From a virus: 32,086 bases of DNA. The notes below the pieces were generated by a model that worked only from the letters and a program-made list of their open reading frames with translations, was not told where the DNA came from and ran no database searches. Position 1 is the first letter of the stretch, and each line of letters begins with the position of its first letter. This document shows positions 13,631 to 17,964 of this stretch, piece by piece. Location: positions 1 through 32,086 of the IMG/VR virus record IMGVR_UViG_3300020420_000042; one strand, written 5' to 3'. A program made the translations under genes and the position numbers.

Positions 13631-15700
13631 TTAGATGAGGATCTTGTTAAGTTCCTTGAGACCATGAGTGATCATCTTTTTAGCTGATCCCTCGATAATG
13701 AAGTGATCAAAGCATCCATCAAAACCTTTTATAAAGGCATCAAATTCTGCAATTTGGTTGTCATTCAACATCTCTCTAGGATACAACTTGTATGGACATA
13801 AGATCATACCTATGACCTCGATGCCCCATTTAGAAACAATGTCTCTAGCTTGTTGACATTTTTCTATTGAGTTAGGTAGTCCATCAGTAATGATAATCAT
13901 AACCTTACGATCTTCAGATCTTTTGGCTAACCTTTCGCCCTCTGCAATCATGGCTGAATGTGTAGGTGTTCCCCCACTACTATTGCCATATTGATATGCA
14001 ACATGATCTTTAGCTTTCATCCAATTTTGATCATGATCTTTGAGTAGATATAAATCATGAGATGAATAACTCTCTCCACTTTGTGACAAGTTTTGATTGT
14101 TGTAATATTGAGCATAAGGAAAACAACCAACTGAATATTTTACTTGTACTTTGTGTAAAGCGTTACCAAGGATTAAAGCGAGATTGACACTTTGTTTATC
14201 ATTGTTGTAGTCCCTCATAGATGAGGAAGTATCAATCAAAAAAGAAACAACTGTTCTTGTTCCTGTCTGTCTCCAAGGCTGATGAAATATGTTAGGTGTA
14301 TTAGTACATAATTTACCTAACTTTCTAGCATCAAGTTTGCCACGATCTCGATTTCTTTTAGTACCGTAACGATCGGGATTTCTAAGAATTCTAGATAAAG
14401 TTTGAGAGCAATCTGAAACATTAATTTTAGCTAACTCTCTGCCTACCTTTTTAGATTTCTTATCAATAGAACTTTTAAGATGTGGATCATTAGGACTAAT
14501 CATATTATCAACAGAATAATTTTTAGCCTGTAGATTTTTACGATCTCCTTTGTCTGTTCTTTTGCCTTTATCTTTCTGATTTTCATCAGCTATAAAGTCC
14601 TCTTTATTTTTGAAATCTTGATCAGTTAGATCTATAGCAATTGATCCTTGTTCCTCAGATGCATTTGATCCATCCCTGTCCATCTCGACAGTACTGTTAG
14701 ATGTTCCACTAGCATCATCAGATCCATCAGCATCAGCATCAGCATCATCAGATCCATCAGCATCAGATCCATCAGCATCAGATCCATCAGCATCATCAGA
14801 TCCATCAGTATCATCAGATCCATCAGCATCATCAGATCCATTAGCATCATCAGATCCATTAGCATCATCAGATCCATCAGACATGTCTGATTTATCTTTA
14901 TCTTCAAACTCATTTGAATTTTCAGAGTTGCTCGATGTAGATTGATTTTCATAATCTTTATCCTCTGAACTTTCTGTAGATCCATTACCGTTGGTATCGA
15001 ATTGTGGTTGTTGAGGACTAGAATATTTACTACTCAACTCAATACACAAATTCAAAACATCTCTAGTATTCTTACAGGTCTTTAACTTGATTAAAGCCTG
15101 TTCTAGATCGTTTCTAAGTTTACCACTAGCTACAAGTAAATCTTCACTTGATCCTACTGATGGCACTTTATAACCGCACCAATCGATATAAGCTAAAGTA
15201 TTTAGAGTGAATAAAAAATTTCTAGGATCATTAGCTTTAAATCCATTCTTTACACTCTCATCAACTGCCCAAGAGGTTAACTTTTCGAGGACATTTTTAG
15301 CACCATCAAAATGGCATCTAGATAAAAGATCTTTTTCTTGTCTAGGATCTTCAAGAGCATTAAGCATCTTAACAATACCTTTATGACCTTTCCATTCTAG
15401 CTTAATTGCATCATCCCAAGTATCTTTGTCTGTACAAATATTGTGACCTATTTCATGCAAGGCAAAACCTGTATAAACCTCAGTTAGATAATTGGTTATC
15501 TTAGCATTAGCTTTGATAGGTGGAAAATTTATCTCTGATATTAATTCATTTTCATGATTATATTGCCATCTAGTAGATGCAGTATAACCACTCCAATTGA
15601 TCTTTAATCTCTTTACTTTGAGATTAGGAATATATTTCAAAGCTGATTGAGTATTCTTTTCAACTGCTGAAACTAATTCCTGTGCAATAACATTATGCAT
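13631..15700 (-). CDS. VWA-domain protein with HExxH metallopeptidase-like domain (CobT-like)
   Basis: A 689-residue partner of the upstream MoxR-type ATPase. The N-terminal part has FALHEIGHN (HEIGH at 82-86), a zinc-binding HExxH, followed by NALEDPRQEKD, as in metallopeptidase-like domains fused to VWA. Residues about 270-333 are a low-complexity Ser/Asp/Gly tract. The C-terminal VWA domain begins with VVSFLIDTSSSM near residue 490 (DxSxS metal site), continues through SSGGTPTHSAM (the MIDAS Thr) and includes MIIITDGLPNS. Such MoxR/VWA pairs act as chaperone-like or metal-insertion machines (CobS/CobT); the phage substrate is unknown. AAGGAG precedes ATG 15700, 46 bases after a predicted ribozyme cut. 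Confidence 0.88.
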   Translation of the reverse strand: MHNVIAQELVSAVEKNTQSALKYIPNLKVKRLKINWSGYTASTRWQYNHENELISEINFPPIKANAKITNYLTEVYTGFALHEIGHNICTDKDTWDDAIKLEWKGHKGIVKMLNALEDPRQEKDLLSRCHFDGAKNVLEKLTSWAVDESVKNGFKANDPRNFLFTLNTLAYIDWCGYKVPSVGSSEDLLVASGKLRNDLEQALIKLKTCKNTRDVLNLCIELSSKYSSPQQPQFDTNGNGSTESSEDKDYENQSTSSNSENSNEFEDKDKSDMSDGSDDANGSDDANGSDDADGSDDTDGSDDADGSDADGSDADGSDDADADADGSDDASGTSNSTVEMDRDGSNASEEQGSIAIDLTDQDFKNKEDFIADENQKDKGKRTDKGDRKNLQAKNYSVDNMISPNDPHLKSSIDKKSKKVGRELAKINVSDCSQTLSRILRNPDRYGTKRNRDRGKLDARKLGKLCTNTPNIFHQPWRQTGTRTVVSFLIDTSSSMRDYNNDKQSVNLALILGNALHKVQVKYSVGCFPYAQYYNNQNLSQSGESYSSHDLYLLKDHDQNWMKAKDHVAYQYGNSSGGTPTHSAMIAEGERLAKRSEDRKVMIIITDGLPNSIEKCQQARDIVSKWGIEVIGMILCPYKLYPREMLNDNQIAEFDAFIKGFDGCFDHFIIEGSAKKMITHGLKELNKILI
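14717..14880 (-). repeat. In-frame tandem repeat encoding acidic SDDADG units
   Basis: An imperfect repeat of roughly 18 bases (unit near CATCAGATCCATCAG on the plus strand) encodes S-D-D-A-D/N-G units, with shorter 12-base variants. Copy number differs between units, which suggests slippage. It forms the acidic linker between the two domains of the VWA protein. Confidence 0.85.
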
Positions 15701-15739: not shown

Positions 15740-15796
15740 CTACCATGACATATAAAATATGTTTCGATCTTGCTAAAGGATCTCTTCAGATGGCAG
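15740..15796 (-). ncRNA. Hammerhead ribozyme, type I (open stem I)
   Basis: Minus strand: stem I CTGCCAT (15790-15796); core CTGAAGA (15783-15789); stem II GATC / GATC (15779-15782 with 15766-15769) around CTTTAGCAA; GAA (15763-15765); stem III ACATAT / ATATGT with a TTT loop (15748-15762); cleavage base C17 in the canonical GUC (15747); stem I 3' ATGGTAG (15740-15746, one G-U pair). The full consensus CUGANGA...GAA...NUH is present. The cut falls between 15747 and 15746, 46 bases before the VWA start codon. Compared with the copy at 13540-13591, stems I and II each show a compensated base-pair change. Confidence 0.92.
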
Positions 15797-15799
15797 AAA

Positions 15800-15828
15800 A
15801 CTGCCCCAATAAAAACTATTGGAGCAGT
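15800..15828 (-). terminator. Hairpin after MoxR gene, next to the type I hammerhead
   Basis: Leftward RNA forms an 11-bp stem (ACTGCTCCAAT / ATTGGGGCAGT, one U-G pair) with a 7-base loop, then UUU, eight bases after the MoxR stop. It resembles a weak intrinsic terminator. GGCAG of its 3' arm can instead pair across TTTT with CTGCC of ribozyme stem I, so the two folds may compete. Confidence 0.55.
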
Positions 15829-15835
15829 TAGAAAT

Positions 15836-17314
15836 TTAGTAAGGCATTGCATCATCATTGCTTTCCTCAGAATTACTTTCTTCAGTATCTGATGGAACAG
15901 GATTATCTACAGGCTGATCTTCCTCAGTAGGTAATTCTCCATCTTCAACTAAAATTTTGAAAGTTTTAGGATCAATATGAGTGTTGAACAATTGAGATAA
16001 ATACTCCCTGTCTGATATGTCTAGTGAATTTCCAAGACATGCCATAAGGGAAATTTTAGGATCAATCCCATCGACTAACCTGTGTATCCATGCAGTTGTA
16101 TTTCTAAAACTAGGTGCAAGAGTTGGGGCATCCCCTCGATCTTGGGCATCCCTACATAGGTTAACAAACTCAACAATTTTGTCACATAGTCTAGATCCTG
16201 TCCCTGTCTTTTCCTGTAAAATTTTACTTTCGACAGATGGTTTAGGATAGTTCACTTCAGCAAAAATTGAAAACCTATTCAGTAATGAACTGTCCATAGG
16301 TTTTGCTCCGCTGAATTGACCTGTTATATCGCCCTGTCCATTTGTATTGTCACAGGCTACAACTACAACTCCCTCTGCAAAAGGTATTCTTTTACCTGTC
16401 TCAGGGATTATATATTCACGGTCTTGAAGAACACCATTTAAGGATGATAAAATGTCCTGTCTTATTCTAGAAATTTCATCGATCAGTAAAACCGTATAAG
16501 GTTGCTGAATAGCTTTTAAAAGCAATCCATCATTCCAATATGTTGATCCATTTACTGCACCAAAAGATCCAAAAAATTGATCAGTAGTCATATCATCATT
16601 ACCTGTAATAGCGATGAACTGCCTACCTGTTTTAGCTGAAAACCATCGAGGTAATGAAGTTTTACCTGTCCCAGCTTTTCCATAAAGCCAAACATGTTCA
16701 GCCATTCTTCCACTAGGTGGACAGACACAACTTAAAAACATCTCTAAGACATTCTTTTGAGGTGTATAATGAGGATCAACTTTTGGAGATCTATCATCAT
16801 CGTAAATATCAAAAGTTTTATCAGACATAGATCTAAAACCAAATAGCTTTGATCCTGTTTCAGATCTAATTTTATTAACCTGTCTGATTTCTGTTTTAGG
16901 AACATCAACATTAGCTGATTGTGTATTTGATCCCTCAGAAACTTTAACAATCTTCTCTTTAACAGGTGGATTAGCTTTGAATTCTAAAAGATCAGTAATT
17001 TTATCTCTTAGATCTTTTAAAGGTAATCCCATGATATTGTTTAGTTGTTTGTCAATATCTGAAACAGTATTTTGAACCTGTCCAACAGGAGCAGTTACTA
17101 CTGTAGGTTTTACAGGTTGTACTGTTTTTGTTGCCATTGCAGATCCAAACTTATTAATGTCAATTCCAAGGTCTATTGCTAGTTGAATTAATTCAGATTT
17201 AATCAACATGTTTACACCTTTTGACGGTCTCTTATTTGGCTGAATATTTAACTCAGCCAATATCTCAGCTTTGAGCATTTGTCTCTGCTCACTTGTAAAT
17301 TTTATATCTCGCAT
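15836..17314 (-). CDS. MoxR/CobS-type AAA+ ATPase
   Basis: A 492-residue AAA+ ATPase that probably works with the VWA protein encoded next. The N-terminal ~190 residues are a poorly conserved helical and linker region. Walker A GKAGTGKTS lies at 212-220 and Walker B LLIDE at 276-280. ISRIRQDILSSLNGVLQDREY carries the MoxR-type segment after Walker B. VVVVACDNTNGQGDITGQFSGAKPMDSSLLNRF is the sensor 1 and arginine-finger region. An acidic Glu/Asp-rich tail follows. CobS in cobaltochelatase and MoxR proteins share this layout. No cobalamin genes are present, so a phage-specific remodelling job is likelier than vitamin synthesis. GGAG lies eight bases before the ATG. Confidence 0.92.
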   Translation of the reverse strand: MRDIKFTSEQRQMLKAEILAELNIQPNKRPSKGVNMLIKSELIQLAIDLGIDINKFGSAMATKTVQPVKPTVVTAPVGQVQNTVSDIDKQLNNIMGLPLKDLRDKITDLLEFKANPPVKEKIVKVSEGSNTQSANVDVPKTEIRQVNKIRSETGSKLFGFRSMSDKTFDIYDDDRSPKVDPHYTPQKNVLEMFLSCVCPPSGRMAEHVWLYGKAGTGKTSLPRWFSAKTGRQFIAITGNDDMTTDQFFGSFGAVNGSTYWNDGLLLKAIQQPYTVLLIDEISRIRQDILSSLNGVLQDREYIIPETGKRIPFAEGVVVVACDNTNGQGDITGQFSGAKPMDSSLLNRFSIFAEVNYPKPSVESKILQEKTGTGSRLCDKIVEFVNLCRDAQDRGDAPTLAPSFRNTTAWIHRLVDGIDPKISLMACLGNSLDISDREYLSQLFNTHIDPKTFKILVEDGELPTEEDQPVDNPVPSDTEESNSEESNDDAMPY

Positions 17315-17329
17315 AATTTACACTCCCTT

Positions 17330-17563
17330 TTAGTTGTATTTAAAAAATTTATTACCGCTCTTTAGAGTAATTGAACCTGTGTTCAATCTAAACCTACGGT
17401 AGTTGTTTATTCTAAAATCATAGACAGTAATGAGGTCTTCATTATCTCTTGTCTCATTCTTTAGAATTCCCCAAAACTCTCTTTTGCTTTGATCCTTTTT
17501 GGTAAAAGATCCTGTAACAATTCGAGAATTGAACATTTTATAAATTTCAGTTTTTTTAAGCAT
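17330..17563 (-). CDS. Hypothetical basic protein, downstream of the type III hammerhead
   Basis: A 77-residue protein (MLKKTEIYKMFNSRIVTGSF at the start) rich in Arg, Lys and Asn, with beta-like segments (LITVYDFRINNYRRFRLNTG). AAAGG lies seven bases before ATG 17563. The predicted ribozyme cut lies 72 bases upstream. It precedes the MoxR gene with a 15-base gap, so they likely share a message. Family not recognised. Confidence 0.75.
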   Translation of the reverse strand: MLKKTEIYKMFNSRIVTGSFTKKDQSKREFWGILKNETRDNEDLITVYDFRINNYRRFRLNTGSITLKSGNKFFKYN

Positions 17564-17586: not shown

Positions 17587-17644
17587 TTACTGATTTCATG
17601 CTTTCGCAATCATCAGATCGAATAACACATTCGATGATCAGTAA
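17587..17644 (-). ncRNA. Hammerhead ribozyme, type III (open stem III)
   Basis: Minus strand: stem III 5' TTACTGAT (17637-17644); cleavage base C17 in AUC (17636); stem I ATCGAAT / ATTCGAT (17629-17635 with 17617-17623) capped by GTGTT; core CTGATGA (17610-17616); stem II TTGC / GCAT with a GAAA tetraloop (17598-17609), whose first pair is U-U rather than the usual G-C; GAAA (17594-17597); stem III 3' TCAGTAA (17587-17593). The 58 bases satisfy CUGANGA, GAA, A15.1-U16.1 and NUH exactly. The cut falls between 17636 and 17635. The short stem II with a U-U closing mismatch may lower activity. Confidence 0.9.
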
Positions 17645-17651
17645 TTTTTAA

Positions 17652-17671
17652 GGGGCAATCAAAACTGCCCC
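17652..17671 (-). terminator. GGGGCA / TGCCCC hairpin upstream of the type III hammerhead
   Basis: A 6-bp stem with an 8-base loop, 19 of 20 bases identical to 13598-13617. It is seven bases upstream of the ribozyme in the leftward transcript. On the plus strand a T-rich run (ATTTTTT) follows, so it could also stop rightward RNA. Confidence 0.5.
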
Positions 17672-17697
17672 CTAATAAAATTTTTTGCTCAGAGTGA

Positions 17698-17820
17698 TTA
17701 AAAACAATCCTGTACCTTGAGAGTGGATCGTGTTTTGCACCAAATCGGTCTTACAGGCTTTTTAATCGTTATGGCTAGATATTTACCCATTCTAGTAGTC
17801 AGATTTTTTAGTTCGCACAT
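17698..17820 (-). CDS. Possible 40-residue basic protein at head of the MoxR transcript
   Basis: ATG at 17820 to TAA at 17698, starting MCELKNLTTRMGKYLAITIK and ending TLKVQDCF. It is basic, with no strong ribosome site. It would make the gene, GGGGCA hairpin, hammerhead, gene order seen at 13.6 and 15.8 kb hold here too. The short length leaves chance possible. Confidence 0.3.
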   Translation of the reverse strand: MCELKNLTTRMGKYLAITIKKPVRPIWCKTRSTLKVQDCF

Positions 17821-17935
17821 AAATTCAGTAAACTTTTTTAATTACTGCATTATCAAAGCGGTCACTTCAATCTGCGGGGCGGGCGGTCAGTCCTTAAAAA
17901 CCTTTATTTCTCCTCTGTCTGTCAATCTCCCTTGG

Positions 17936-17964
17936 AGATTAATTTCAAAATCAAATATTGTCAA
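17936..17964 (-). promoter_or_regulatory. Candidate leftward promoter for the MoxR/VWA transcript
   Basis: Minus strand TTGACA (17959-17964), 17 bases, then TAATCT (17936-17941). The -35 box is perfect and the -10 box moderate. Transcripts from here would contain the hairpin at 17652 and all four ribozymes if read through. Confidence 0.45.

Follow-up and report, generated by a model that had tools for sequence, protein, structure and literature searches.

The window, that is, the whole 32,086-nt stretch of viral DNA that we analysed, carries on its minus strand a complete type III hammerhead ribozyme at positions 17587-17644, found by inspection of the sequence and by a structured motif search. 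We consider it probable that this ribozyme cleaves itself in the 5′ UTR of a leftward operon and, paired with a type I hammerhead, processes the transcript into separate messages. Taken by itself the window element is one more phage hammerhead; its importance lies in the large and uniform family to which it leads, a type III family with interleaved type I elements that a curated RNA library misses and whose members separate cistrons much as punctuation would. What hammerheads do in bacteria and phages is a question of long standing, and the layout of this family makes it directly testable through sequencing of 5′-OH and 3′-cyclic-phosphate ends.

A complete type III hammerhead at a divergence of two gene modules

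Read 5′ to 3′ on the minus strand, the element begins with UUACUGAU (stem III), C17 (position 17636) and AUCGAAU GUGUU AUUCGAU (stem I and its loop), and continues with CUGAUGA (17610-17616), U UGC GAAA GCA U (stem II, 17598-17609), GAA (17595-17597) and AUCAGUAA (stem III, with A15.1). Three helices surround the core: an open stem III of 8 bp (17637-17644 with 17587-17594), a stem I of 7 bp closed by loop I, GUGUU, and a loop-closed stem II formed by three Watson-Crick pairs plus a U10.1·U11.1 beside the core and capped by GAAA. The core agrees throughout with C3UGANGA9 ... G12AA14-A15.1 ... U16.1-H17 (CUGAUGA, GAAA and UC). The exact core, the open stem III, the make-up of stem II and a loop I of GTGTT had all been described in the sequence-only reading and are indeed present, although it stated no strand and made no mention of the second hammerhead at 15740-15796. 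The bond that it proposed as the cut site, 17636/17635, is the one that we predict from where the NUH site stands with respect to the core, directly after C17. The Watson-Crick pair usual at 10.1-11.1 is absent and replaced by U·U, a criterion that does not define the class; in the available text of Perreault et al. 2011 (PMC3088659), U·U is a documented natural variant and the mismatch best tolerated at this place.

Matches to terminase, portal and major head protein, all encoded on the plus strand of this 32-kb IMG/VR virus record, agree with the earlier view that the DNA comes from a phage, namely a tailed one; it is of a marine type. The minus strand carries a replication-side module with a MoxR/CobS-like AAA+ ATPase, a CobT-like VWA protein, a RecE-like exonuclease and a helicase. 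The type III hammerhead lies where plus- and minus-strand genes diverge, 23 nt before a 77-aa ORF (17330-17563, minus strand) whose weak similarity to phrog_1086 and WYL_2 (Sm-like fold; Pfam E 2.6e-4) is below the curated cut-off. The MoxR/CobS-like gene (15836-17314, minus strand; AAA_5, phrog_249) follows next, and then the CobT-like gene (13631-15700, minus strand). A BLAST search for isolate relatives of the locus returned none. By its portal protein (33% identity) the nearest isolate is Roseobacter phage CRP-810; a CobS-CobT pair is present there, and the covariance model found no hammerhead in it; nothing convincing was found by the same model in the stretches examined of Roseobacter phage CRP-7, Manatee Spring podovirus, Vibrio phage K479 and Methylophilales phage MEP401.

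Comparative evidence decides the class

Folding alone is not decisive. The hammerhead fold has a free energy of -12.7 kcal/mol versus -13.6 for the minimum, a competing fold in which CUGAU of the core pairs with AUCAG in the 3′ strand of stem III; in the ensemble, the pairs of stem III have a probability of about 0.89, and the folding z of the minus strand at the element is -1.26. What decides the type III call is the comparative evidence.

The hammerhead motif search gave 165 matches in the real loci searched, versus 0 when it was run on 1.42 Mb of Markov-shuffled sequence. The window element is itself among the 111 homologues from which we built a covariance model; this model scores it at 63.4 bits (E 3.3e-17). 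In the alignment of these 111 sequences, two-sided substitutions in 15 pairs numbered 651 versus 163 in shuffles; this set had been picked by a finder that demands pairing, and the unbiased test is therefore a stem-agnostic pattern in which nothing but the core, the motif of loop I and three As in loop II is fixed and 10.1/11.1 are free. All 106 distinct viral matches of this pattern form stems I, II and III. The motif is short and its core simple, which is what an origin by chance would have in its favour, but the shuffled sequence, the E value and the conserved position in relatives leave a coincidence at 17587-17644 almost no probability. We rejected readings of the element as a plus-strand feature, as chance or as a terminator only, since the stems covary around a preserved core. 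The loops are conserved as well across the type III homologues (loop I of UGUGU type, loop II NAAA in most), which, at the level of sequence, would fit loop-loop stabilisation.

Rfam gave no hammerhead match for the element, either at the gathering cut-off or at E≤10. The window element shares topology and core with RF00008 (Hammerhead_3) yet goes unmatched by this model, whose gathering cut-off is 48.5 bits, and we do not count it as an RF00008 member; we place it in its class by core and topology. Within the phage family, a member of the G-C type scores 47.6 bits. The model probably misses the window element because of its U·U and its different peripheral sequence.

Relatives of the phage were collected through TerL (19 loci, 72-94% identity) and through the MoxR-like protein (9 loci, 70-73% identity), several of the latter sharing contigs with TerL loci. 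Those that reach the region have a hammerhead at the same place (orthologues in L004-L031), and many have a second, tandem type III copy; the covariance model found no hammerhead in the two most distant TerL relatives, L029 and L030. The orthologue in L008 (5917-5974) differs from the window element by N17 alone, with A17 for the C17 of the window. In L004, two type III copies on the same strand, with identical stem III, flank a cassette of small genes. What lies between the copies varies, from nothing in L005 to two other genes in L008, and the window contains a single type III copy.

A further hammerhead, of type I, follows the MoxR-like gene

A weak match of the covariance model first drew attention to positions 15740-15796 of the minus strand, between the MoxR-like and CobT-like genes, where we find a type I hammerhead: a core (CUGAAGA), closed stems II (GAUC/GAUC) and III (ACAUAU-UUU-AUAUGU), and an open stem I (CUGCCAU/AUGGUAG), with C17 at 15747. 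Its match to Rfam Hammerhead_HH9 is weak (20.6 bits, E 0.0046, cut-off 52). In 4 related sequences it is retained, where none of the 13 pairs is lost and two changes are compensatory; the CobT-like gene is the first gene past it. The sequence and its orthologues also reveal a terminator-like hairpin, CUGCUCCAAUA...UAUUGGGGCAG followed by UUUU, after the MoxR-like gene (15799-15829, minus strand). In the type I orthologue of L005 (7508-7576, plus strand), one more U stands between the core and stem II (CUGACGA U GAUC), which may be an insertion next to the core.

A conserved structured leader precedes the type III element

Just upstream of the type III ribozyme, a hairpin GGGGGCAG...UUGCCCC (17649-17675, minus strand; fold of the 5′ product, -17.4 kcal/mol) is retained in relatives, with some of its pairs changed on both sides, and is damaged in L016. 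Further upstream, alignment and consensus folding define a conserved structured 5′ leader of about 250 nt (17676-17935, minus strand), with a mean identity of 80% in an alignment of 6 sequences (A4). The consensus fold has 16 pairs with two-sided changes, and the hairpin stands at its end, before the ribozyme. No Rfam match was found for the leader. A candidate promoter lies at 17936-17964 (minus strand), with TTGACA at 17964-17959, a spacer of 17 nt and TAATCT at 17941-17936; the TTGACA block is conserved in relatives, the candidate -10 is weak, and a consensus promoter scan did not select this site. An inverted repeat, AATCTCC-AAG-GGAGATT (17924-17941, minus strand), overlaps the candidate -10 and start region and could be an operator or a 5′ hairpin; in L005 and L008 it is altered and still palindromic (ACTCTACGAGT).

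Hammerhead arrays are common in uncultured phages

Two scans of viral contigs each yielded at least 100 stretches with such elements, and uncultured phages commonly carry type III arrays. This contradicts the sequence-only reading where it held the topology to be rarer in phages, and the available text of PMC3088659, in which type III is as frequent in bacteria as the other types, points the same way. The viral type III family is uniform, mostly with an 18-nt stem I bearing a UGUGU-type loop and a 12-nt stem II bearing an NAAA loop. Of 186 distinct viral elements, chosen in part for U·U, 103 have it at 10.1/11.1, as do 51/106 of the elements matching the pattern in which these positions are free.

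The elements lie a median of 23 nt before an ORF of the same strand and 43 nt after one, and the 50 nt upstream of the 186 viral elements have a median z of -2.95, versus -0.26 downstream. The layout that recurs across phages is gene, hairpin, type III element, ribosome site, gene. In type I elements the median distance is 0 nt to the preceding stop codon and 28 nt from cut to start codon, compared with 36 and 71 nt, respectively, in type III elements. Loci with several hammerheads have all of them on one strand (85/85 loci and a further 70/70 that were new, 155/155 in all, although some of these loci are from the same contig and not all are independent). Phages with a single copy are also common. 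Among the genes that follow the viral elements are those for MoxR-like ATPases, DUF3150 proteins and DUF2201 metallopeptidase/VWA proteins. The locus L142 (2016-8607, plus strand) holds 13 hammerheads, 11 of type I and 2 of type III, in 6.6 kb, before nearly every gene of the array.

Phage hammerheads, bacterial type III elements, the U·U and clusters between genes were already known (PMC3088659, available text; PMC6155905). In the clusters of Perreault et al. 2011, as far as the available text of PMC3088659 goes, types I-III likewise bracket individual phage genes or small blocks, U10.1-U11.1 occurs, stem II goes down to two pairs, and processing of long transcripts was proposed. For tandem bacterial and prophage hammerheads, that text describes cleavage in vitro and, with one set, within E. 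coli. Unlike those clusters, the family in uncultured phages is large and uniform, has a hairpin before type III elements and type I elements abutting stop codons, and shows a coupling of N17 to 10.1 that the available text does not mention. The same text places a hammerhead variant of haloviruses HF1 and HF2 (HHphage) 13 nt before a helicase gene, with a mapped mRNA 5′ end at most 3 nt from the cut. Like the window element, HHphage belongs to an early DNA-replication operon, where it occupies the 5′ UTR near the start codon, but it is a core variant tied to high salt, whereas the window core is exact. The hammerhead of Pseudomonas phage PaP3, a podovirus (named in the available text of PMC3088659), is similarly intergenic; our covariance model finds it at 44072-44123 (19.8 bits, E 0.01), but it differs in stem I and loop II and has no close sequence relationship to the window element. 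Within the searchable literature, the scale and layout of the uncultured-phage family appear to be new.

N17 is coupled to positions 10.1/11.1

Among the viral elements, A17 is found in 91/103 of those with U·U at 10.1/11.1 and C17 in 60/72 of those with G-C. The association persists after clustering (53/6 vs 6/41, p 2e-16) and inside single genomes (stratified test on 16 loci, p 6.5e-6). As the coupling had been noticed before these tests, the only later test is a fresh sample of 127 previously unseen elements, in which a pyrimidine at 10.1 went with 37 A17 and 5 other bases, and a purine with 25 A17 and 60 others (p 2.8e-10). In all of these statistics, related phages contribute elements that are not fully independent. 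The window element, with U·U and C17, is an exception shared by 4/143 U·U elements of the viral set. Perreault et al. report the U·U mismatch, and the available text of PMC3088659 mentions no link to N17; within the searchable literature, the coupling is apparently new.

One broader reading, which we put forward tentatively and hold to be doubtful on balance, is that in uncultured phages hammerheads are a general punctuation of cistrons with built-in rate classes. N17 and 10.1/11.1 would then co-evolve (G-C with C17, U·U with A17, A·A with U or C17), reflecting a shared structural or metal-ligand role of an active-site purine at 10.1 or 17. If so, the window element, which differs from an A17 orthologue at a single base, would serve as a natural mutant for testing the rule. 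The coupling is in any case a specific and testable structure-function prediction on one of the best-studied ribozymes.

A probable processing site of the leftward transcript

What the sequences show is the motif, with its conservation, covariation, position and strand, and the second ribozyme; from this arrangement we infer the transcription start, cleavage and its effect on stability. Transcription would start about 290 nt upstream of the type III element and proceed through the conserved structured leader and the hairpin, and the RNA would then be cut after C17. The predicted 5′ product is a leader RNA of about 290 nt, with the hairpin and a short tail at its 3′ end, terminating in a 2′,3′-cyclic phosphate. 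The 3′ product would be the message for the 77-aa ORF and the MoxR-like ATPase; it would carry a 5′-OH and begin with the folded ribozyme body, its start codon lying about 73 nt downstream of the cut. The type I element would cut at 15747/15746, its own body staying on the 3′ end of the upstream RNA. Because the type III cut falls on the 5′ side of its ribozyme and the type I cut on the 3′ side, both bodies should stay on the RNA between them, and the pair would release an mRNA of about 1.9 kb with a folded ribozyme at both ends. The message of the CobT-like gene would begin on a fresh 5′-OH after the type I cut. Most likely, then, the type III element is a constitutive mRNA-processing site that splits the leader RNA from the operon mRNA. 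Its purpose is probably to give each cistron separate stability and translation. The window copy, with its rare U·U/C17 combination, may cleave less well than its relatives.

Cleavage could instead be conditional, with the conserved leader or the competing fold turning the element into a switch for the operon. The similar energy of the fold that sequesters CUGAU, the strongly conserved structured leader directly upstream, and the U·U and A17 or C17 variants that could tune the rate all lend this some appeal. We nevertheless find it rather unlikely, as unrelated phages keep the hairpin-ribozyme-RBS layout in many gene contexts, for which no shared sensor is needed, and as no ligand domain or expression platform was identified. 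Quite improbable is a role in RNA circularisation, through religation of the ends as in viroids and retrozymes, or in recombination, with the ribozyme-RBS block as a cassette that swaps genes. The L004 copies with their identical stem III around a cassette, and the different cassettes of other relatives, would fit such a role; in the window, however, circularisation is unlikely because the two elements differ in type, and they differ in sequence too, so that the ends left by type III and type I could not reform one active site. Single-copy phages being common also speaks against it, and clustered hammerheads gave neither circular nor spliced products when Perreault et al. searched for them (PMC3088659, available text).

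That the element is not catalytic, and is instead a structured part of a terminator or of a site for protein binding, or else a hammerhead in decay that has little activity left, strikes us as highly improbable. The rarity of U·U with C17 in the family, the weak stem II and the terminator-like hairpins nearby are compatible with such a fate, but all core nucleotides are kept and the stems covary in relatives, neither of which a hairpin or terminator would need. C17 is, moreover, the standard cleavage nucleotide among known hammerheads. U·U is, for its part, the mismatch at 10.1/11.1 that is best tolerated (PMC3088659, available text).

Related hammerheads in Patescibacteria

Type III hammerheads of the same family are also present in genomes of Patescibacteria (CPR; contig loci L221-L338). 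A literature search returned no report of hammerheads in Patescibacteria, which is weak evidence given that most subscription papers lay outside the search. Covariance-model matches at E≤1e-5 occur in 24/239 sampled Patescibacteria genomes versus 1/249 of Pseudomonadota, each count including a centre genome chosen for having a match. Some of these hammerheads are on contigs of about 1 Mb, upstream of housekeeping genes (for example rpoB, rpsB and truB). A contig of a Parcubacteria MAG (L232, 2474-6528, plus strand), possibly a prophage, carries nine type III elements on one strand around a helicase-like gene.
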